Virus record (IMG/VR): IMGVR_UViG_3300036818_000025
Location: 1-21,934 of that record
DNA length: 21,934 nucleotides
From: a virus
Direction: 5' to 3' (one strand)
Shown here: positions 2,113 to 13,636 of the stretch, piece by piece
How the letters are laid out: each line of letters begins with the position of its first letter
How positions within the stretch are numbered: the first letter of the stretch is position 1
Translations under genes and position numbers: made by a program
The notes under the pieces: model-generated
The model's database searches: none
What the model saw: only the letters and a program-made list of their open reading frames with translations
What the model was told of the DNA's origin: nothing

Positions 2113-2570
2113 GTACCGGCGCCGAGCGTCTCGCCGGCGTACTCCAGCAGATCGTCGAGCACGACACCGACTACGACGTCCGCTACCCGCTCGTGTTCGA
2201 GGCCCTGGCGCTCGCGCTCGACCTCGACATGCGGGCCGGCATCGCCATCGACCCGGCCGAGCCGGACTGGCCCGTCGTCTACATCGAACTCCCCACCGGT
2301 CAAACGTCGTGGCATCTGCCGAAGCACGGCCGCGCCTGGGATCAGCATTCGACGGACGAGAAGCACTACCGGATCGAGCAGTTCGTCAACCAGGTGCACA
2401 CCGAGGCGCCCAGCGCGCCGGCCGCGCGCCCGGCCGACGTCGCCGGCCTCACCGCATGCCCGAACACGCCGCCGTGCCCGCATCCCAAGCTCGTCCACGA
2501 CATCGACGAACTCAACGCCCCACGGCCCACGTGCTGCGCCGTCGGCTGCACCTGCGGCAGGACCGCATGA
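2109..2570 (+). CDS. hypothetical phage protein with C-terminal Cys cluster (153 aa)
   Basis: GTG start at 2109 overlapping the previous stop; the frame extends upstream but only inside the preceding gene. The first ~100 residues contain 'YIELPTGQTSWHLPKH' and 'WDQHSTDEKHYRI', a pattern I recognise from unnamed proteins common in actinophages. The C-terminal ~40 residues carry six cysteines and a histidine (C-x4-C-P-H, then CC-x3-C-x-C), which could form a metal site. The exact biochemical role is unknown. It lies three genes after the small membrane protein and two genes before the large terminase. Confidence 0.65.
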   Translation: MSTGAERLAGVLQQIVEHDTDYDVRYPLVFEALALALDLDMRAGIAIDPAEPDWPVVYIELPTGQTSWHLPKHGRAWDQHSTDEKHYRIEQFVNQVHTEAPSAPAARPADVAGLTACPNTPPCPHPKLVHDIDELNAPRPTCCAVGCTCGRTA

Positions 2571-2615
2571 GCACCACCATGGCCGCCCGGCCGACACACG
2601 CAACGGAGGAAACCC

Positions 2616-2882
2616 ATGAGCACGCCGACCGCGCCGGACGTGTCCATTCACGACTTCACGCTTACCGTCGACACCGAGGCGACCGCAGCAGCGCAACGCG
2701 AGGCGCGCGACAAGGTGATCTGCCGGCTCGAACGGGACGGCGAGTCGATCACGATGGAATGCTCCGCCGCCCAGCTGGTGTGGGTCATCGAGGACCGCGA
2801 CCTGTTCACCGGCTGGTACGCGCAAGCCATCGCGCAGCGCGCGGCGGCAGCTGCTGCACCGGAACAAGTCACGGCTGGCTGA
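2616..2882 (+). CDS. small hypothetical protein (88 aa)
   Basis: ATG start at 2616 with a strong GGAGGAAA site 6-7 nt upstream, the first clear independent ribosome binding site since the small terminase. The stop TGA (2880-2882) overlaps the large-terminase ATG. Residues about 12-70 look like a compact alpha/beta domain: a beta hairpin ('VICRLERDGESITMECSA') then a helix ending 'RDLFTGWYAQAIAQ'. The end is poly-Ala. No family recognised. Its coupling to the terminase suggests co-translation, not necessarily shared function. Confidence 0.65.
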   Translation: MSTPTAPDVSIHDFTLTVDTEATAAAQREARDKVICRLERDGESITMECSAAQLVWVIEDRDLFTGWYAQAIAQRAAAAAAPEQVTAG

Positions 2883-4276
2883 TGACCGCGGCCGTCGTCG
2901 ACGCGGCCAACGAGCGCATCGTCCGATATAACCCGCGCGGCGCCGCTGTCGAGCTGATGCAGAGTCGCGTCAAGATCGTCGCGATGAGCGGCCCGGCGGG
3001 TACGGGCAAGAGCCTGGCGGCACTGTTCAAGCTGCACCTGGCCGCGCTGGCCATGCCGGACCTGCGGGGCCTGATCGTCCGGCAGACGCACGTTTCGCTC
3101 ACCTCGACGACGCTGATCACGTTCGAAAAAGAGGTCGCCGCCGCCGCGCTCGAAGCTGGCGTCGTCACCTGGTTCGGCGGCTCCGGCCGGCAGCCCGCCG
3201 CCTACCGGTACGCCAACGGCTCCACCATCACCGTCGGCGGCCTCGACAAGCCGGTCAAGTTCATGGGTGGCCAGTACGACCGGATCGTCATCGACGAGGC
3301 GACCGAGATCACCGAGACCGCGCTGGAACTGCTCAGCACTCGGCTTCGCGCGGACACCCCGACGTACAAGCAGCTGATCATGTGCTGCAACCCGGACGCG
3401 CCCGGCCATTGGCTGAACCAGCGCGCCGCCAAGGGCGCCATCCCGATGTTGCAGTCCCGGCACCGCGACAACCCGGCCTACTTCCGGGCCGACGGCACCA
3501 TGACCGCCCGCGGCGCCGACTACATGGCCGTCCTCGACGCCCTCACCGGCGTCCGGCGCCTGCGCCTCCTCGACGGGATCTGGGCGGCGGCCGAGGGCGT
3601 CATCTACGACACGTTCGACACCTCCGTGCACCTGATCGACAAGCCGACGTTCAGCAAGAACACGCCGCTGTGCTCGGCCGGCCTGCCGTGGGATTGGGCG
3701 CGTTACTGGTCGATCGACTTCGGGTTCACGCACCCATTCGTCCTGCAACGCTGGGCGATGGACGGCGACGGCCGGCTGTACCGGTACGCCGAGATCTACC
3801 GCACCCAACGCCTCGTCGAAGACCACGCCGCCGACGTGCTCGCCGAGGTGTCCCGCGAAGGCACCAAGGCCGAAGGGTTGGCCGGGAAACGGTTCTGGAC
3901 CGAACCCCACCCGCAGGCCGTGATCTGTGACCACGACGCCGAAGGCCGGGCCACGTTCGAGGAGAAGTCAGGCCTGGCCACCGTCGCCGCACGCAAGGCC
4001 GTCAAGGAAGGCCTCCAGGCCGTGCAGTCCCGGTTGAAGCTCGCCGGCGACGGTCGGGCGCGCCTGTTCCTGATCCGCGACGCCTGCGGCCGCAAGGACC
4101 AGTCGCTCGTCGACAAGGCGTTGCCGGCGTGCACCGAGGACGAGATCGGTGGCTACGTCTGGGACGGCACGAAAGAGCAGCCAGTCAAGGAAAAAGACGA
4201 TGGCTGCGACACCAAACGCTACTTGGTCATGCACGTCGATCACGGGCGCCGACACAGGATCAAGTGGGTCTCATGA
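2882..4276 (+). CDS. terL: terminase large subunit (ATPase + nuclease)
   Basis: 464 aa. Motor of DNA packaging: it docks on the portal, translocates DNA with ATP and cuts the concatemer. Visible motifs: Walker A GPAGTGKS (37-44); Walker B IVIDEAT (135-141) with catalytic Glu; coupling motif 'LIMCCNPDAPGHW' (165-177). In the RNase H-like nuclease half there are three acidic positions: D279 in 'SIDFG', D350 in 'VICDHDAEG', and D440/D443 in 'KDDGCDTKRYLV'. The order and length match PBSX/Terminase_3-type large subunits. The start is ATG 2882 (TGATG overlap); the frame is open back to 2309, but that part is the shadow of two other genes. The protein appears intact, with no missing catalytic residue. 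Confidence 0.93.
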   Translation: MTAAVVDAANERIVRYNPRGAAVELMQSRVKIVAMSGPAGTGKSLAALFKLHLAALAMPDLRGLIVRQTHVSLTSTTLITFEKEVAAAALEAGVVTWFGGSGRQPAAYRYANGSTITVGGLDKPVKFMGGQYDRIVIDEATEITETALELLSTRLRADTPTYKQLIMCCNPDAPGHWLNQRAAKGAIPMLQSRHRDNPAYFRADGTMTARGADYMAVLDALTGVRRLRLLDGIWAAAEGVIYDTFDTSVHLIDKPTFSKNTPLCSAGLPWDWARYWSIDFGFTHPFVLQRWAMDGDGRLYRYAEIYRTQRLVEDHAADVLAEVSREGTKAEGLAGKRFWTEPHPQAVICDHDAEGRATFEEKSGLATVAARKAVKEGLQAVQSRLKLAGDGRARLFLIRDACGRKDQSLVDKALPACTEDEIGGYVWDGTKEQPVKEKDDGCDTKRYLVMHVDHGRRHRIKWVS

Positions 4277-4593
4277 CGGTAATCAACGGTGCCCGGCCGA
4301 TCGTCACCCCGCGCGGAAGTGTCCTCGGCGCGTTCATGCCGAAGCCCCGCGCCACCATCCAGGTGGAAGCTGCCGAGCGGACGCCGCACCGTCGGCTGCG
4401 CGACCGGCTGGCCGGCCGTGGCCGCCAGATCAAGGACGGCATCGTCGCCACCGCAGCGACCGCATCCGGCTGCGTCGCCGCGTTCGACTGGCACCCGTGG
4501 GCGGGCTTCCTCGCGATCGGCCTGTCGCTGGTGTTCATCGACCACGCGGTCGACCGGCCCGAGGCGGTGATCGACGATGAGTGTGTGGAATAA
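4273..4593 (+). CDS. small two-segment membrane protein
   Basis: 106 aa, ATG 4273 in an ATGA junction with the terminase stop. The N-terminal ~55 residues are basic and probably cytoplasmic ('RTPHRRLRDRLAGRGRQIKD'). Two hydrophobic stretches follow: about 56-72 ('GIVATAATASGCVAAF') and about 77-92 ('AGFLAIGLSLVFIDHA'). The C-terminus is acidic. It overlaps the portal gene by 17 nt. Small membrane proteins between terminase and portal are common in actinophages; their role is not known to me. It could also be a virion or superinfection-exclusion component. Confidence 0.65.
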   Translation: MTVINGARPIVTPRGSVLGAFMPKPRATIQVEAAERTPHRRLRDRLAGRGRQIKDGIVATAATASGCVAAFDWHPWAGFLAIGLSLVFIDHAVDRPEAVIDDECVE

Positions 4594-5881
4594 CCTCACC
4601 CGCCGGCGCCCGCGCACCCGGCCGCGCAACGCTGCGGCGCCAGCCACCCCTGGGCCGCGTGTGCCGATGGTCGGCCGATTCCCGTCCGTTCTCGCGTCCC
4701 TGACCGGTACGTCCGATCCCGAGCAGCAGATGGAAACGTTCGGCCGGTCCGGCACGCTCCACTCGGTCGTCACCCTGGCCGCGTCCTCGTTCAGCCAGGT
4801 CCAATGGCGGCTGTTCCGTCAGGCCGACGGCCGTGGCCGTATCTCCGGCCCGGACCCCGTCCGCGAGGTCACGTCGCATGCCGCGTTGGACATGTGGAAC
4901 AAGCCGAATCCGTGGATGGCCGGCCAACTGTTCCGTGAGTCCTACCAGCAGCACCTGAAGCTGACCGGGCTGGCGTACTGGGTGATCAGCTACGTCGGCA
5001 GCATCCCGGCGTGGATGTGGCCGGTGCGCCCAGACCGGATGATGCCCGTGCCGGACGCCAAGACATTCATCGCCGGATGGGTCTACACCGGACCGTCCGG
5101 TGAGCAGATCCCGCTGGAAAACAAGGAAGTCGTCTGGCTGCGGCAGCCACACCCGCTCAACCCGTACGGCGGCATGGGCGCGGTCGAGCCGCTCATGCCC
5201 GACATCGAGTCGGCCAGCTACACCAGCCAGTGGAACCGGAACTTCTTCAAAAATTCCGCCCAGCCGGGCGGCCTGTACATCTTCCCCGACCGTGTCGGTG
5301 ACGACCAGTGGGAGGAAATGGCCGAACGGTGGGCCGAGCAGCACCAGGGCGTGCAGCGCGCGCACCGGGTCGCGTTCTTGGAAGGTGGCGGCCAGTGGGT
5401 GCCGGCCACCTACTCGATGAAGGACATGCAGTTCACCGAGTTGCGGCAAGACGGCCGGGACATCATCTACGAGGGATACGGCACCAGTAAAGGGATGTTG
5501 GGCGTCGTCGACGACGTCAACCGCGCCAACATCGAGGGCAGCGAGTACATCTACACCAAATACCGGCTCGGCGTCGACCTCGCCCGCACCAAAGACGTTC
5601 TCAACTACCAGTTCCTGCCGCTGTTCGGGTCGTCCGGCCAGGGCGTCAGCTTTGACGCGGACAACCCGGTTCCGCGCGACTGGCAGGCCGACGCCGCGAC
5701 TACTGCGGCGAACGCGAACGCCGCGATCGGACTCGTACAGGTCGGGTTCGATCCCGAGGAAACCCTGAACGCGATGAGCCTGCCGGCGATCAAGCACACC
5801 GGGGCCATCCCCTCCACGGTGCAGCCGCCGCTCGCTGCGCCGGCCAAGACGTACGAGCCAGCCGAGACCGAGGCCGCGTGA
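4577..5881 (+). CDS. portal protein (HK97/SPP1-type family)
   Basis: 434 aa. Forms the dodecameric ring at one capsid vertex through which DNA enters and leaves and on which terminase and connector dock. Seen: a disordered Arg/Pro-rich N-terminus (1-35); the core 'SFSQVQWRLFRQ' near 75; 'GLAYWVISYVG' and 'MWPVRPDRM' (wing and clip regions); 'VVWLRQPHPLNPYGGMGAVE' around 190-210, the family's typical 'h.r.....d...G.SpL' segment; and 'FFKNSAQPGGLYIFPD' around 225-240. A long stem helix 'NRANIEGSEYIYTKYRLGVDL' lies near 315-335. It is encoded just after the terminase and before the protease, the usual order. The start ATG 4577 overlaps the previous gene. Confidence 0.9.
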   Translation: MSVWNNLTRRRPRTRPRNAAAPATPGPRVPMVGRFPSVLASLTGTSDPEQQMETFGRSGTLHSVVTLAASSFSQVQWRLFRQADGRGRISGPDPVREVTSHAALDMWNKPNPWMAGQLFRESYQQHLKLTGLAYWVISYVGSIPAWMWPVRPDRMMPVPDAKTFIAGWVYTGPSGEQIPLENKEVVWLRQPHPLNPYGGMGAVEPLMPDIESASYTSQWNRNFFKNSAQPGGLYIFPDRVGDDQWEEMAERWAEQHQGVQRAHRVAFLEGGGQWVPATYSMKDMQFTELRQDGRDIIYEGYGTSKGMLGVVDDVNRANIEGSEYIYTKYRLGVDLARTKDVLNYQFLPLFGSSGQGVSFDADNPVPRDWQADAATTAANANAAIGLVQVGFDPEETLNAMSLPAIKHTGAIPSTVQPPLAAPAKTYEPAETEAA

Positions 5882-5906: not shown

Positions 5907-7268
5907 ATGACGATCCCCGCCATCGGAATCCACCACACGTCCACCGAGGACAGTCCTTGGGACGGCCCGGCTGCGGTCGCGGCGATGCCTGCCGAGTACG
6001 CGACTCTGCACTACTGCCACGCCTGGTGGTCGGCGGACGCGGCAGCGTCCAGCCACACCGCCGGTGACGACGACGCCGACGACAAAAAGTCGGCCTACTC
6101 CTTCCCCCATCACAAAAAGGACGGCGGTCCGGCGAACGTTCCTGGCTGCCGCAACGTCCTCGCCCGCGTCGCGAACAGCAGCATCCCGGCCGGCGACAAG
6201 GCTGGTGTCCGCAAGCACGCCCAGGCCCACCTCGACGACGCGAACAAGAAGTCGAACAGCGGCAGCCGGCTACTTCTGCCGTCCGCGATGCAGGCGACGT
6301 TGCGGCGCATCCACAACCTGACCCCGCCGTCCGCACGGAAGTGGTATCGCTTCACCAACGCGGCCGAGGCCGACGACGGCAGCTCGACGCTCTACATCTT
6401 CGGGCCGATCGGCGGCTGGTTCGGCGCGAACGCCGAGGACTTCGTCGAGGACCTGGCGCAGGTGTCGGGCCCGCTGAACGTGCACATCAACTCTGGTGGC
6501 GGTGACGCGTTCGAGGGCATCACGATCTCGAACCTGCTCCGCAACCACCCGTCCACCGTGAACGGCATCGTCACCGGCATGGCCGCCAGCGCCGCGTCGA
6601 TCATCGCGATGGGCTGCGACAGCCTTACCATGTCGCCCGGCAGCCAGCTGATGATCCACCGCGCCGCGACCAGCGTCTACGGCAACCGCGACGACATGGC
6701 CGAGGTCATGGACATGTTGGAGCGCATGGATACCTCGCTGGCCGGCCTCTACCAGTTGCGCGCCGGTGGCGACCTGGCCGACTGGGAATCCGCGATGCAG
6801 GCCGAGACCTGGTACACGCCCCAGGAGGCCGTCGACGCAGGCCTGGCTGACCACATCGCCGAACCGCCGAACAAGGCCGGCGACGACGAGGACGAGGCAG
6901 CCGGCAACGGCGCCACCGGGTGGGGTAACACCACGCGCCGCGACACCGCCCCGGTGGCGGCCGTCGACGACGCCGACACCAAGTGCCCCAGCTGCGGCAA
7001 GTTCAACAAGGCCGACGCCGACACCTGCACCGAATGCGGCGCCGACATGGGCGGCGACGACGGTGACGACGAAGACGGCGACACCGACGACAAGGCTGCC
7101 GCAGCCACCACTACACAGACTCCGGTGCTGGAGCAGCCGCGCGCGGCAGCTGCCCCGGCACCGGTCCCGCCACCGGTTGTACCCGCGCCGCAACCGGTGA
7201 TCGATCCGGAGGTTGTGCGTGCTGCTTTCCGCAGCGCGTTCTCCGCTCACAAGAAGGAGGCGCGGTAA
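5907..7268 (+). CDS. ClpP-type prohead protease with N-terminal 'WDG' domain and C-terminal zinc ribbon
   Basis: 453 aa, ATG 5907 with AAGGGGG upstream. Cuts scaffold/capsid delta domain during prohead maturation. Three parts. (1) Residues 1-115, with 'EDSPWDGPAAVAAMP' and 'YSFPHHKKDGGPANVPGCRN', resemble an accessory domain that other phages fuse to maturation proteases or capsid proteins. (2) ClpP-like domain about 145-320: oxyanion segment 'NSGGGDAFEG' (195-204), nucleophile S228 in 'GMAASAAS', catalytic H251 in 'MIHRA', and E300 with 'TPQEAVDAGLADHI' at the end. (3) An acidic, low-complexity tail containing a C-x2-C...C-x2-C zinc ribbon (C360, C363, C374, C377) and a Pro/Ala-rich end that may act as scaffold. 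No separate scaffold gene is seen between this gene and the capsid gene. Confidence 0.88.
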   Translation: MTIPAIGIHHTSTEDSPWDGPAAVAAMPAEYATLHYCHAWWSADAAASSHTAGDDDADDKKSAYSFPHHKKDGGPANVPGCRNVLARVANSSIPAGDKAGVRKHAQAHLDDANKKSNSGSRLLLPSAMQATLRRIHNLTPPSARKWYRFTNAAEADDGSSTLYIFGPIGGWFGANAEDFVEDLAQVSGPLNVHINSGGGDAFEGITISNLLRNHPSTVNGIVTGMAASAASIIAMGCDSLTMSPGSQLMIHRAATSVYGNRDDMAEVMDMLERMDTSLAGLYQLRAGGDLADWESAMQAETWYTPQEAVDAGLADHIAEPPNKAGDDEDEAAGNGATGWGNTTRRDTAPVAAVDDADTKCPSCGKFNKADADTCTECGADMGGDDGDDEDGDTDDKAAAATTTQTPVLEQPRAAAAPAPVPPPVVPAPQPVIDPEVVRAAFRSAFSAHKKEAR

Positions 7269-7270
7269 CG

Positions 7271-8686
7271 ATGACCGCACCCACCATCCCCACGTCCTCC
7301 CAGGAGCTGGAGGACTTCATGCACGACGAGGTCAAGTGGGGTGAGATCGTCACCCAGCTGACCACCGGGAACAACGGCCCGTTCAGCGACTTCATGGGCA
7401 AGTACGCCGCTGCCCACACGGCCAAGAACATCGACACCGCGAAGCAAGTCGAGGAGCAGACGCAGAAGGTCCTGCGCGACTTCCTCGTCCAGAACGGCCA
7501 GGACATCACTGGCAAGCTCGACATGCGCGACGTGAACCGCGCCAAGGCCTCCAGCTCGGGTCTGACCAACCGCGACAAGGGTCAGATGTACAACGCGAAG
7601 GCGCCCGGCGCGAAGCTGGACAAGGCGTTCGCGAACCACGCCGAGTTTTTCCAGGCCGCGTGGCACCGCAACAGCCAGCTGCCGAACATCGACGACCTCC
7701 GCAAGAAGATGGAGAACCACAGCAAGATCGTCCGCGAGCTCCGCAACGCGGCCGGTTCGACGGTTCCGTCCGACGGTGGTTTCCTCATCCCGGAAATCCT
7801 GCGCAGCGACATTCTTCAGCTGGCCCTTGAGGGCGCGGTTGTCCGTCCTCACGCGACGGTCATCCCCATGGACTCGCTGACGGTGCCGATCCCGGCCGTC
7901 GACGAAACCAGCCGCGTGACGAACATCTATGGCGGCATCCAGTTTTACTGGACCCCAGAGGGTGGCCTGGGCGTCGACAGCTCGGCGAAGTTCGGGCAGA
8001 TCAACCTGGTCGCGAAGAAACTGTTCGGGTACAGCGGCATCCCGAACGAGCTACTCGCCGACGCGGCAGCCTTCGTCGCCTGGTTCGGGCAGGCATTCCC
8101 GTCGGCCTACGGCTGGTTCGAGGACATCGCGTTCCTGACCGGCGACGGCACCGACAAGCCGCTCGGCGTGGAGAAGGGTCCCGGCGTGGTGACCACCACC
8201 CGTGCGGGTTCGGGCCAGTCGGCCACCATCGGCTACGACGACGTCGTCCAGATGTTCGCGCGCATGTACCCGGCGTCGATGCGCAACGCCCGGTGGGTCG
8301 CGAACATCAGCACCTACCCGCAGCTCGCCGAACTGTCCTTCACGCCAGCCGGCGGGTCGACCCCGGTGCCGGTGATGTTGTGGCAGATGAACGCGATCGG
8401 CCAACCAGAGCAGACGCTTCTCGGTCGCCCGATCGACTGGACGGAGAAGACCTCGGCGTTGGGCACCACCGGTGACCTGATGCTCGTCGACTGGTCCCAG
8501 TACCTCATCGGCGACCGGCAGGCCATGTCGCTGGAGTCCAGCAACGACTACCTGTTCGGCACCGACAAGACCGCGTTCCGCATCCTCGGCCGCCTCGACG
8601 GCCAGCCGTGGCTGCGTTCCGCGATCACCCCGCACAGCGGCGGCCCGACCCTGTCCCCCTACGTGATCCTCGGCCAGAACACCTGA
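7271..8686 (+). CDS. major capsid protein (HK97 fold)
   Basis: 471 aa, ATG 7271, with AAGGAGG at the very end of the protease gene as ribosome binding site. Residues 1 to about 160 are polar and helical ('EEQTQKVLRDFLVQNGQD'), as expected for a delta/scaffold domain; the core begins near 'AAGSTVPSDGGFLIPEIL' (160-177), the typical start of a mature HK97-type subunit. The core contains 'VRPHATVIPMDSLTVPIPAV', 'YWTPEGG', 'FLTGDGTDKPLGV' and 'YLFGTDKTAFRILGRLDGQP', all standard family blocks (N-arm, E-loop, spine helix, P-domain). The maturation cleavage near residue 160 by the upstream protease is an inference from this layout. The length including the delta domain is usual. Confidence 0.92.
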   Translation: MTAPTIPTSSQELEDFMHDEVKWGEIVTQLTTGNNGPFSDFMGKYAAAHTAKNIDTAKQVEEQTQKVLRDFLVQNGQDITGKLDMRDVNRAKASSSGLTNRDKGQMYNAKAPGAKLDKAFANHAEFFQAAWHRNSQLPNIDDLRKKMENHSKIVRELRNAAGSTVPSDGGFLIPEILRSDILQLALEGAVVRPHATVIPMDSLTVPIPAVDETSRVTNIYGGIQFYWTPEGGLGVDSSAKFGQINLVAKKLFGYSGIPNELLADAAAFVAWFGQAFPSAYGWFEDIAFLTGDGTDKPLGVEKGPGVVTTTRAGSGQSATIGYDDVVQMFARMYPASMRNARWVANISTYPQLAELSFTPAGGSTPVPVMLWQMNAIGQPEQTLLGRPIDWTEKTSALGTTGDLMLVDWSQYLIGDRQAMSLESSNDYLFGTDKTAFRILGRLDGQPWLRSAITPHSGGPTLSPYVILGQNT

Positions 8687-9541: not shown

Positions 9542-9919
9542 ATGACGAGCGCACACCCGCCGATCGAACACAACCCGCACGTGTGGGCCGACATCGTGGT
9601 CACCGACCGGAATCTGTCGGTACAGCCACCGATCCCGGTGGTAACCGACCCGACGGTAACGGTCACCCAGGCCGGCACGTCCACCACCGTGCCGGCGGTC
9701 ACCGAGGGAGGTGAGCAGCCATCAGTCAGCCCACCGGAGACGGCGGCATCGGCTGGTACGGACTCCTCGGCCAACTCCAGTCCGGCCGCGAAATCCGACG
9801 CCAGTTCCGCGAAGCCGACCCCGTCGCCTGCCCCAAGTGCGGCGAGCCCGTCCGCGCCGGCGGTGAAACCGGCGAAATCTTCTGCCGCTGGGGCCACTGG
9901 CACTGGGACGGCTCAGTAG
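9542..9919 (+). CDS. Pro/Thr-rich small protein; 3' half overlaps another gene
   Basis: 125 aa if read to its TAG (9917-9919). ATG 9542 has GGAGAG upstream. The first ~60 residues look genuine ('HVWADIVVTDRNLSVQPPIP', then 'PTVTVTQAGTSTTVPAVTEG'). From about residue 60 the product becomes Ser/Ala/Pro low complexity, exactly where a different frame (9721-9945) begins to encode a clear zinc-ribbon protein. So the second half is probably an overlap by-product or a disordered tail. Possibilities: two overlapping genes, a -1 frameshift fusion, or a base error. The function of the first half is unknown. Confidence 0.55.
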   Translation: MTSAHPPIEHNPHVWADIVVTDRNLSVQPPIPVVTDPTVTVTQAGTSTTVPAVTEGGEQPSVSPPETAASAGTDSSANSSPAAKSDASSAKPTPSPAPSAASPSAPAVKPAKSSAAGATGTGTAQ

Positions 9920-9945
9920 AGGACGCGCAACCGCGCAACAACTAG
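9721..9945 (+). CDS. zinc-ribbon protein with apparent ATC start (74 aa)
   Basis: This frame has no ATG, GTG or TTG between its upstream stop (TGA 9712-9714) and its end, yet encodes a typical actinophage small protein: 'GDGGIGWYGLLGQLQSGREI', then C37-x2-C40 ('CPKCGEPV'), C55 and 'RWGHWHWDG' (C-x2-C-x14-C plus His). Third positions are strongly G/C. GGAGGTGA (9707-9714) lies 6 nt before ATC 9721, perfect spacing, and the next codons give 'SQPTGDGG', so ATC (or an ATG changed to ATC) is the likely start. Alternative: fusion to the overlapping upstream gene by a -1 shift, although no slippery heptamer is seen. Homologues near capsid genes are unnamed. Confidence 0.6.
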   Translation: MSQPTGDGGIGWYGLLGQLQSGREIRRQFREADPVACPKCGEPVRAGGETGEIFCRWGHWHWDGSVEDAQPRNN

Positions 9946-9962: not shown

Positions 9963-12260
9963 ATGAGCGCGATCGGCTTTACGAGCGGAGATCCACGGAA
10001 AGTCAGCGTTTCCGGCGACACGATGACCGGCGCGCTCGTGCTGCCCGGCAACCCGGACGCGCCGTTGCAGGCCGCGCCGGAGCAGTATGTGGACGCCGAG
10101 ACCACACGCGCCGAGGCGGCCGAGGCCGGGCGCAAGATCGTCGCACCCGTCGCGCAGATCAACCGCGGCCGCGCGAGCGTCATCACCACCTACGCCAGCG
10201 GTCACGGCTGGACGGCCAACGGGTTCGCCAGCAGCAACGTCAACGACACCAGCGACGGCCGGCTGTCCGGCCAGATGCTCACTGGCACCACCACCGGAAA
10301 CGCCAGCGCGTTCCCGACCTTCACCAAGACCGGTGCCTCGGCGATCAGCATCGCCGGGAACTGCCTGCGCGTGTGGGTCAAGGTCGACGTTCCGACGAAC
10401 GTCACCGCGATCACGCTGCGGGTCGCGGACACGGGCGGTATCGCGGCCGGCCGCTACATCAGCTGGACCGCGCTCGCCTCCTCTGGCGGCACCTACCGCA
10501 CCAACGGCCTGATCATCCCGCCGAACACGTGGACCGAGCTGTCGTTCAGCCTCGGCTCGGCGTTCACGGCCGGCTCGCCGAACCTGGCCGCGCTCACCGA
10601 GTACCGGTGGATCTGCCAGGACAACGGCACCGCGTTCACTGCGCACTTCGGCGGCATCGAGATGTACCCGGCCCTGGCTGGCCGCTATCCGAACGGCGTC
10701 GTCTGCCTCGGATTCGACGACTGCTACGCCGGCCAAGCCAGCTTGGCGATGAATCTGCTGTCCAGCTTCGGCTACACCGCAACAATCTTCCCGATCATCG
10801 ACCAGATCGGGCAGTCCGGCAGCTGGACGCTCGCCCAGTTGCAGCAGATGGCCAACATCGGCTGGGAAGTCGCCCCGCACGCCCACACCCTGGCCAACCA
10901 CACCGGATGGAACAGCCTGACCACCGCGCAAGTCGCCGCAGACGTCGCCGCCAGCAAGGCATGGATCGCCGCCAACGGGTTCGGGCTGTCCGGCATGTTC
11001 GCCTACCCGCTCGGCGGGTTCAACGACGGGTTCGACGCTGCGGTCGCACCGCTGGTGCAGGTGGCGCGCACGATCGACTCGACGCTGATGACCGAGACAT
11101 TGCCGATCGGCAGTGCACAGCACCTGCGCTCGGCGGCAGGCGTCGGTGGCAGCGGCGGCATCGGTGTCAGCACGTACACCACGGCGAGTACCGGCGTGCT
11201 CGCGCTCGCCAAGGCCGCGGGCGCGCTCGTCCCGATCACCATCCACGACGTGTCCAGCGGCGCGTCGGGCAACATCAACCAGATCAGCATCGCGGACCTG
11301 ACCACGCTGGTCACCGCGATCAACACGGCCGGCATGGCCGTCGCCACCTACGGCGAGGTGCTCGCCTACGCGATGCTCGGCGCGACACCGGCCGCGCCCA
11401 TCTCCGCCGCCGACGCGACGATCACCATCACCGGCGCCCAGAACGCGCAGCAGGCCAAGGTCACGGCCGGCACGTTCGTCACGCCGTCCGGCGGCAGTGC
11501 GACCGTCGCGCCGACGACCGCGTACGCACACCGGCGGGACACGCTCGCGAACTGGCTGGCCAACAGCGCACTCGTCCTGGCTGCCGGCGAGATGGCGTAC
11601 GAGACCGATCTCAACTGCGCCAAGGTCGGCGACGGCGCATCCACCTGGGCAGCACTTCCCTACCTGCGCACGCCTGGCGTGTGGACGGCATCCAGTAGCG
11701 GACTGGTCGCCGCGACCGGTGATGGGTCGATCTTCCCGAGCCAAGGTCCGCCGACGACCGGGCGGCCGATGTTCTTCCCGGTGCGCATCGACCAGAACGC
11801 CGCGATCACCAATCTGATCACCGGCTACGTCAACGGCTCGACACCCACGCTGCCGACCGGCTCGTTCCTGGCCATGTACGCGTGCTCGACGCCCGGCGCG
11901 TCCGGCGGCGCGCTGCTCGGCGCGACGGCGGACTTCTCGGCGGACGTGACCCCGACACAGCTGGAGCTGGTGCTCCCGATCGCCAGCAATGCCGCCGGTG
12001 CTGCCTCGTCGATTCCCGCTCAGCCGATCGGCGCCTGGGTGTACTTCATGCTGCTCACCTCGTACACGGGGTTGACCACCGCTGCGGCCCAGTACGTCGC
12101 TGGGCGCCTGTTCGGCACCAACCTTGACGGCCTGGTTTCCGGCATCACTCCGCGCGTCTACACCAACAGCGGCGGCGCGACGATGACGACGCCGCCGCTC
12201 GCGGTGCCGACCCTGACTCAGTCGAACATCAACGTCACCAGCTGGATGTGTGCGAAATGA
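9963..12260 (+). CDS. fibre-like virion protein with polysaccharide deacetylase (CE4/NodB) domain
   Basis: 765 aa, ATG 9963 with GGGAGGAGGG upstream. N-terminus 'VSGDTMTGALVLPGNPDAPL' and 'QYVDAE' (15-45) is the common anchor repeat of phage fibres. Residues about 70-240 form a beta-rich domain. Residues about 243-465 match NodB-type deacetylases: motif 1 'LGFDDCY' (D252, D253), motif 2 'HAHTLANH' (H306/H308/H313), motif 3 'YPLGGFN' (348-354), motif 5 'ITIHDV' (H428). Next come 'TAGTFVTPSGGSATVAP' (501-517) and 'GEMAYETDLNCAKVGDGAST' (542-561), another fibre module, then a C-terminal beta domain of about 190 residues. It probably removes acetyl groups from host surface glycan. Unusually, it lies between capsid and connector genes. 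Motif 2 spacing differs slightly from H(S/T)xxH. Confidence 0.8.
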   Translation: MSAIGFTSGDPRKVSVSGDTMTGALVLPGNPDAPLQAAPEQYVDAETTRAEAAEAGRKIVAPVAQINRGRASVITTYASGHGWTANGFASSNVNDTSDGRLSGQMLTGTTTGNASAFPTFTKTGASAISIAGNCLRVWVKVDVPTNVTAITLRVADTGGIAAGRYISWTALASSGGTYRTNGLIIPPNTWTELSFSLGSAFTAGSPNLAALTEYRWICQDNGTAFTAHFGGIEMYPALAGRYPNGVVCLGFDDCYAGQASLAMNLLSSFGYTATIFPIIDQIGQSGSWTLAQLQQMANIGWEVAPHAHTLANHTGWNSLTTAQVAADVAASKAWIAANGFGLSGMFAYPLGGFNDGFDAAVAPLVQVARTIDSTLMTETLPIGSAQHLRSAAGVGGSGGIGVSTYTTASTGVLALAKAAGALVPITIHDVSSGASGNINQISIADLTTLVTAINTAGMAVATYGEVLAYAMLGATPAAPISAADATITITGAQNAQQAKVTAGTFVTPSGGSATVAPTTAYAHRRDTLANWLANSALVLAAGEMAYETDLNCAKVGDGASTWAALPYLRTPGVWTASSSGLVAATGDGSIFPSQGPPTTGRPMFFPVRIDQNAAITNLITGYVNGSTPTLPTGSFLAMYACSTPGASGGALLGATADFSADVTPTQLELVLPIASNAAGAASSIPAQPIGAWVYFMLLTSYTGLTTAAAQYVAGRLFGTNLDGLVSGITPRVYTNSGGATMTTPPLAVPTLTQSNINVTSWMCAK

Positions 12261-13636
12261 CCACCGTCCAGCAGGGACAGTCCCTCACGCTGACCGCCCA
12301 GTTCTTCGAATACGAGTCCGGGCCGGCGCAGGACGTCACCGACCTGACCATCACCATCACCGCACCCGACTCCACAGTGGACGTGGCCACGACGTCGACG
12401 GGCATCACGCACGTCACCACCGGCACCTACCAGTACGTGTGGGCCGTCCCGGCTGACGCGGTCCTCGGCGACCACCTCGTCGCCTGGGTCGCGAACGAGG
12501 CCTCCGCCAGCGAACTCGTCACCGTCACCACCAACGTCCCGTCCGGCAGCACCAACGAGGTCTGGTACTGCACCCGCGAGGACGTCAAAGCAGCTCTCGA
12601 CGTACCCGAGGTGTCCTGGCGTGACGCGCAGATCGACCGCGCCATCGAGGGTGCTTCCCGATCGATCGAGGGCGACCTCGGCCGCTACTTCTACCCGCAG
12701 TACGCCGTCGAGACATTCGACTGGCCAGACCACCAGTACAGCGCCGCATGGCGGCTGTGGCTCGACCAGCGGGAACTGACCTCCGTCACCTCGGTTACCA
12801 CCGCCGGTATCGACATCACCTCGTCGGTGATGCTGCGCCCGGACGATGCTCCGCTGCGCGGGTTTCCGTACACCAAGGTCGAGATCGACCTGTCCAGCAG
12901 CGCCGCGTTCTCCGCTGGCCAAACGTTCCAGCGCAGCATCGCGATCACCGGCACGTTCGGGTTCTGTGCCGGCGAAACGACCGGCGGCACCATGGTGTCA
13001 GCGTTCTCGGACACCACCGGCACTACCGGCACCGTCTCCGATGCCAGCCTGATCGGTGTCGGCAACATCATCCGTGTCGACGCCGAACGCATGATCGTCA
13101 CCGGGCGCGGTATGGCCAGCACCAGCCAAACGCTACTGGCGCCCGGCCTGACCGCGCTCAACAGCAACAACACCGTGCCCGTCACCACCGGCGCCGAGTT
13201 CGACACAGGCGAGATCATCCTCATCGACAGCGAACAGATGCTGATCACCACAGTCGCCGGCAACAACCTCACCGTGAACCGGGCCTGGAACGGCAGCGTC
13301 CTCGCCGCACACACGGCCGGCGCCACGATCTACGCACCCAGGCTGCTTACGGTCCAGCGTGGCGTGCTCGGTACCACCGCGGCCACCCACTCCGCCAACG
13401 CCGCCGTCAACGTGCACCTGGTGCCACCGTTGATCCGGTCCCTCGCCGTCGCCGAAACCCTCAACTCGCTCGTACAGGAACGCCGCGGCTACACCACGAT
13501 CGTCAAGCGCAGCTCGGGCACGTCGTCCGCGCCCGGTGACCCCCTGGACGTGTCGACCGCGCTCGACGACCTACGCAAGCGTGCCGCGGCCCGTTACAAA
13601 CGGCTGCGCACCCGGACCGCTGCGAGGCTCGTATGA
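12257..13636 (+). CDS. head-tail connector protein with N-terminal Ig-like domain
   Basis: 459 aa, ATG 12257 (ATGA with the fibre stop) preferred to the GTG at 12248, which lies inside the previous gene. Residues 1-95 are an Ig-like beta domain ('LTLTAQFFEYESGPAQDVTD'). From about 105, 'CTREDVKAALDVPEVSWRDA' and 'IDRAIEGASRSIEGDLGRYF' match the helical gp6/Ad1-type adaptor that binds the portal. Residues about 265-395 contain two diverged copies of an 'I.VD.E.M.VT' unit, the second ending 'VQRGVLGTTAATHSANAAV', a phrase common in actinophage connectors. The C-terminal 60 residues are helical and basic. Typical adaptors are about 100-200 aa, so this one carries large insertions. Confidence 0.72.
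   Translation: MTTVQQGQSLTLTAQFFEYESGPAQDVTDLTITITAPDSTVDVATTSTGITHVTTGTYQYVWAVPADAVLGDHLVAWVANEASASELVTVTTNVPSGSTNEVWYCTREDVKAALDVPEVSWRDAQIDRAIEGASRSIEGDLGRYFYPQYAVETFDWPDHQYSAAWRLWLDQRELTSVTSVTTAGIDITSSVMLRPDDAPLRGFPYTKVEIDLSSSAAFSAGQTFQRSIAITGTFGFCAGETTGGTMVSAFSDTTGTTGTVSDASLIGVGNIIRVDAERMIVTGRGMASTSQTLLAPGLTALNSNNTVPVTTGAEFDTGEIILIDSEQMLITTVAGNNLTVNRAWNGSVLAAHTAGATIYAPRLLTVQRGVLGTTAATHSANAAVNVHLVPPLIRSLAVAETLNSLVQERRGYTTIVKRSSGTSSAPGDPLDVSTALDDLRKRAAARYKRLRTRTAARLV

Follow-up and report, generated by a model that had tools for sequence, protein, structure and literature searches.

Results

Locus and features

The window, by which we mean the whole stretch of 21,934 nucleotides analysed, carries a phage head gene block in which terminase (2309-4276), portal (4577-5881), Clp-type head protease (5907-7268) and capsid (7271-8686) genes are followed by small genes and then by genes for a large fibre-like protein (9963-12260) and a head-tail adaptor-like protein (12248-13636). 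The fibre-like protein has a polysaccharide deacetylase domain and an Mtd N-terminal domain, and is not at that place in loci L002 and L003. Residues 358-381 of the head protease, close to its C-terminal end, weakly match a Pfam zinc-ribbon model.

A reading frame (9715-9945), situated between the genes for the major capsid protein and the head-tail connector, lies almost entirely within another open reading frame, one frame over. As a sequence-only reading of the window had pointed out, and as the window sequence confirms, this frame holds no ATG, GTG or TTG codon, yet from an ATC at 9721 it runs for 74 codons, reading AAISQPTGDGGIGWYGLLGQLQ...CPKCGEP...FCRWGHWHWDG...NN up to the stop codon 9943-9945. 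That reading also correctly placed the Shine-Dalgarno (SD) element GGAGGTGA six bases ahead of the ATC and correctly recognised the overlap with an upstream ORF at 9542, which we find to extend to 9919. The features are collected in Table 1.

Table 1. Features of the nested locus, in window coordinates.
Feature	Position	Strand	Evidence or remark
Overlapping upstream ORF, 125 aa, ATG start	9542..9919	+	Open through the site in 80/83 ATC/ACG homologues
Shine-Dalgarno GGAGGTGA, within the upstream ORF; contains the TGA (9712-9714) that is the last stop in the ribbon frame	9707..9714	+	Duplex energy -15.2 kcal/mol
Proposed AUC start codon (ATC)	9721..9723	+	Homologous position ATC in L240 and L242; GTG or ATG in close relatives
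Nested gene, 74-aa protein, predicted N-terminal helix and zinc-ribbon hairpin	9721..9945	+	Homologues and AlphaFold2 model
Second ATC, at the position of codon 1 in relatives of the SWYQLLDI type; for the window, the less likely start of the two	9748..9750	+	Weak SD; missing in L240 and L242
CPKC knuckle, codons 37-40	9829..9840	+	C-P and G-x-P-[L/V/I] conserved; at the knuckle's fourth position the family mostly has C or D
Second knuckle CRWGH, codons 55-59	9883..9897	+	Cys55 invariant

The Shine-Dalgarno element and the window's own clade

The element GGAGGTGA is complementary to the 3' end of 16S rRNA, and the ribbon frame of the window has no standard start codon at SD distance from it. 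Anti-SD pairing before 9721 reaches -15.2 kcal/mol, as against a median of -3.4 for random ATC trinucleotides in related loci. The combination of GGAGGTGA, six nucleotides and ATC occurs once in the window; however, 25 of 100 shuffled sequences held at least one match when up to one mismatch was accepted, so the DNA motif alone is not striking and it is the homologues that give it significance.

The clearest case for a putative ATC start is the window's own clade. Behind the same SD stands ATC in the window, L240 and L242, GTG in L237, L238 and L239, and ATG in L241, and all of these open the same protein. In L240 and L242, which share the ATC, the SD is again 6 nt away; in the other four it lies close by, L238 having the variant GGAGGTGG in place of GGAGGTGA. 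L242, an independent contig, reads GGAGGTGAGCAGCC-ATC-AG as the window does and is identical to it over GGAGGTGAGCAGCCATCAG.

The same clade bears on where initiation would take place. The ATC at 9748 aligns with the family ATC, at codon 1 of the SWYQLLDI-type relatives, and has a GGAG 8 nt upstream. Its anti-SD pairing is weak (-6.6 kcal/mol against -15.2 at 9721), the GTG and ATG relatives begin upstream of GWYG behind the same SD, and L240 and L242 keep the equivalent of the 9721 ATC while having none at 9748. Given the missing ATC in these two relatives and the weak pairing, 9721 is the better start, and we regard a start at 9748 as improbable.

The start position across the family

Homologues were gathered by sequence and profile searches of IMG/VR, then by searches of bacterial genomes and by genus and family searches. 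So as not to exclude Met starts, the IMG/VR contigs were scanned with a pattern beginning after codon 1. This unbiased scan gave ATC 44, GTG 8, ACG 7, ATG 3, TTG 2 and GGC 3 at the start position. The bacterial scan, with one genome per species and a query without its first residue, returned 34 loci, mostly from Streptomyces and other Actinomycetota (the genera include Streptomyces, Kitasatospora, Nonomuraea, Umezawaea and Lentzea); the codon was read in 30 of them, as ATC 21, GTG 6, ATG 2 and TTG 1. Genus and family searches added a few further loci. Over 121 distinct sites in IMG/VR contigs and Streptomyces-type genomes, the codon is ATC in 76, GTG in 18, ATG in 10, ACG in 7, GGC in 6, TTG in 3 and TCC in 1. 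At the GGC and TCC sites the frame continues in from upstream, which leaves room for other starts or for a fusion. One locus, L004, was removed from the set because its zinc knuckle matched by chance and belongs to another protein. Among isolated phages, tblastn found Streptomyces phage Dagobah as the only convincing relative, and a search of plasmids found none.

Thus ATG, GTG, TTG, ATC or ACG occupies the start position in 114 of the 121 sites, at a near-fixed distance from a strong SD, which strongly supports the proposal of a real ATC start. The sequence-only reading had asked whether homologues carry ATG at this position: a start-type codon is indeed shared, but it is mostly ATC and only rarely ATG. 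The absence of ATT and ATA from the start position was considered as further evidence and rejected, since isoleucine is ordinarily encoded by ATC in this family (150 of the 157 Ile codons of nested ribbons, about 96%).

These counts also bear on the suggestion that an ATG or GTG had been lost by sequencing or assembly error, or by a recent inactivating mutation. The window is a metagenomic virus record, in which an error of this kind is conceivable. However, ATC is the majority state of the family and is carried by 25 distinct bacterial-genome loci, among them the isolate genomes of Streptomyces canus, S. typhae, S. fumanus, S. niveus and Nonomuraea thailandensis, and sequencing error in one metagenome cannot explain so many cases in isolates. 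The same SD and ATC recur in the independent contig L242, and the downstream protein is intact, with its invariant Cys and Pro residues. We give a lost ATG or GTG the slightest chance of all the alternatives.

Across the family, the SD peak is centred about 10 nt upstream with a mean of -9.8 kcal/mol, which equals the strength at the family's canonical starts. In 49 of the 76 ATC sites, exactly 6 nt separate GGTGA, GGAGTGA, GGCGA, GAGGTGA or GGAGGTGA from the ATC. A comparison with synonymous recodings of the overlapping protein was dropped as a test of the AUC start, as it does not discriminate: the SD before ATC is slightly stronger than after recoding (medians -10.9 and -10.0), the recoded SD being nearly as strong because the Glu-Gly-Ser/Gly-Glu stretch of the overlapping protein itself spells an SD. 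Among the nested ATC and ACG sites, 67 of 75 have no ATG, GTG or TTG between the last in-frame stop and codon 1.

ACG replaces ATC at the start position in L012, L088, L089, L091, L097, L115 and L127. Five of these seven loci have an in-frame GTG nearby at poor SD spacing; L012 and L127 have none, and in these two ACG may be another start, though we are less sure of ACG than of ATC. At ATC sites with AGC as second codon (for example L042:2624), ATC AGCTGGTACCAGCT includes a 14-bp perfect palindrome, which is probably a by-product of the Ser-Trp-Tyr-Gln codons. A tree of 105 ribbons was poorly resolved; the best tree has 14 changes between canonical and non-canonical starts, of which only about 3 are forced by well-supported branches, and an independent-pairs test had no power.

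Two overlapping frames

The C-terminal half of ORF 9542-9919 is a tail rich in Pro, Ser, Thr and Ala, and is encoded by the same DNA as the zinc-ribbon gene. The upstream protein of the family often begins MPKITVHGG- or MAKITVHGG-, 20-100 residues ahead of the overlap, and in several non-nested relatives it terminates at the ribbon start (GTGA or ATGA). In the non-nested loci L151, L160 and L168, the C-terminal stretch of the MPKITVHGG protein resembles a HeH/SAP helix-extended-helix motif that is absent from the nested phages. L174, L173 and L151 have a tiny zinc-ribbon frame (CxxC...CPxC, with AVGAP or SVGAP between) directly before the overlapping MPKITVHGG gene.

The overlapping frame is itself under selection, as the base composition of the ribbon shows. 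G at its fourfold third positions has a median of 0.16 in nested ribbons against 0.39 in canonical-start relatives (Mann-Whitney p 6e-8), and stands at 0.05 in the window. A third position of the ribbon is the middle base of a codon in the overlapping protein, so this bias favours Ser, Thr, Pro, Ala, Glu and Lys there over Arg, Gly, Cys and Trp. Of 59 nested ribbons, 57 leave the overlapping frame open for the first 180 nt, where 33.5 are expected after synonymous recoding. Nesting accompanies non-canonical starts (80 of 83, against 11 of 31 with canonical ones; Fisher p 1e-11); closely related loci do not count as independent in this comparison, and at several of the 11 only chance keeps the frame open.

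The ribbon might be an untranslated, decaying gene in the ATC phages, held open only by the frame that overlaps it, and at one locus (L099) the ribbon is indeed frame-broken. However, ribbon residues are conserved among diverged ATC phages, and within the ribbon third codon positions are still the most variable (0.39-0.42; first and second positions, 0.26-0.30). This pattern marks the ribbon frame as selected, from which it follows that the ribbon is also coding. Decay is accordingly a very slim prospect. We take the locus to be a dual-coding pair, with both frames open and, by these substitution and composition patterns, both under selection.

A coding ribbon could also be reached from upstream, and the sequence-only reading had allowed for a product made only as a fusion with the overlapping ORF. 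Ribosomes translating ORF 9542 would slip back one base near 9720 in a programmed -1 frameshift, with the SD acting as stimulator, as in dnaX. In every case a -1 shift out of the upstream ORF leads into the ribbon frame, the sites carry an SD-like element, and true in-frame ribbon fusions in other phages (L003, L020, L021, L094, L103 and L128) indicate that a fused ribbon is viable. Against this, only 1 of 75 sites has an XXXYYYZ heptamer within the region open to slippage (11 of 75 under a loose rule), and the window has none; 45 of 75 sites have a ribbon-frame stop no more than 4 codons ahead of codon 1, too close for slippage, that of the window being the TGA at 9712-9714; and the canonical starts of relatives fall at exactly the same codon, as does the annotated ATG of Streptomyces phage Dagobah. 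With no consistent slippery heptamer and with in-frame stops just ahead of the ATC, the fusion is not supported, and we judge it highly improbable. Of the in-frame fusions, that of L003 (610-3165) is an 851-aa protein with many VPSPALSLALTL-type repeats that ends in the zinc ribbon.

The predicted product

Translation from the ATC at 9721 would give a small protein consisting, as modelled, of a helix and a zinc ribbon. Cys37 and Cys55 (window numbering) are invariant among 31-32 homologues, and in many homologues Asp replaces the second Cys of each knuckle. An AlphaFold2 model from 31 aligned homologues (mean pLDDT 80.6) has a helix at residues 12-31 and strands at 43-47 and 52-55, the beta hairpin bearing the Cys residues. 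Foldseek against solved structures gave a weak likeness to small zinc-ribbon structures (best E 0.4), an FmdB-type model scored under its cut-off, and the best BFVD match was one unnamed viral protein of 60 residues. Searches of Pfam, PHROGs and NCBIfam gave no family for either the ribbon or the overlapping protein. From the position of the gene one might guess at a low-copy role in head or neck assembly.

Discussion

Taken together, the homologues and the SD lead us to propose, with a probability of roughly 85%, that translation initiates with fMet at the conserved AUC at 9721, the start of a gene nested in the 3' half of ORF 9542-9919. The strong SD GGAGGTGA six bases upstream would place the initiator tRNA at this AUC. 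Initiation there with fMet is presumably weak, and would leave the nested protein scarcer than the one that surrounds it. Published reporters put the efficiency of AUC starts at 0.1-0.3% of AUG in E. coli and at 5-20% in Clostridium (PMC9680021), and AUC is counted among the seven strongest start codons in E. coli studies (PMC12350097); for Streptomyces, we found no value in the open-licence literature.

Why AUC should be used may be explained by the overlapping frame. Any NTG start would put TGN, that is Cys, Trp or a stop, into a frame rich in Ser, Thr, Pro and Ala, whereas ATC puts TCN, that is Ser, in its place. A single change of ATGA to ATCA would simultaneously remove the stop of the upstream gene and make the AUG an AUC. 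This constraint is a preference and not a necessity. The stronger claim, that nesting forces ATC, was rejected: L006 (the same contig as L237), L007 (the same contig as L238), L164, L239 and L241 are nested yet use GTG or ATG, with Trp or Cys in the overlapping frame, and at 27 of 69 ATC sites the second codon is such that no stop would arise from an ATG. We lean, by a modest degree, towards a fuller interpretation in which AUC is the normal, selected start of a widespread family of actinobacterial phages and prophages, kept both for its Ser reading and for a weak initiation that would fix a low ratio of nested to surrounding protein. That a low output is useful here is something we infer.

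Besides infC, pcnB is among the known genes with non-AUG starts. The infC gene, encoding IF3, resembles the nested gene in having a conserved near-cognate AUN start behind an SD, with reduced initiation, but it is a host housekeeping gene under IF3 autocontrol and its start is AUU. The nested gene, in contrast, is a phage gene inside another gene, and relatives alternate its AUC with GUG, AUG, UUG and perhaps ACG. The AUU start of infC figures in the reference list of PMC9845219. HUN42_00015 of Streptomyces phage Dagobah (MT711977.1, 8909-9091) is a homologous small protein, annotated but unnamed, at the same place in the head block; it differs in having an ATG start within a 4-base ATGA overlap, where the upstream gene ends, so that it is not nested.

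PIRT-Seq in E. coli identified out-of-frame coding sequences with a putative AUC start, among them CDS177 (PMC12350097). Like the nested ribbon, CDS177 is a frame that overlaps another gene, has a putative AUC start and is removed by standard start-codon rules. However, it is a single E. coli frame, whereas the arrangement described here is conserved over many phage lineages and has a product predicted to fold. Same-strand nested phage genes, in which two proteins are made from two frames by way of an internal SD, have AUG, GUG or UUG starts; the nested ribbon differs from these in mostly having AUC at the proposed start.

Gene finders limited to ATG, GTG and TTG miss the nested ribbon gene, and the whole family, present in prophages of common soil actinomycetes and in metagenomes, is detectable only by homology. 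If initiation at the AUC is confirmed, the family would offer a clear example from nature of an AUC start that recurs, explained by the constraint of an overlapping frame. Its matched AUC, GUG and AUG homologues, which share one SD, make start-codon discrimination in Streptomyces directly testable.
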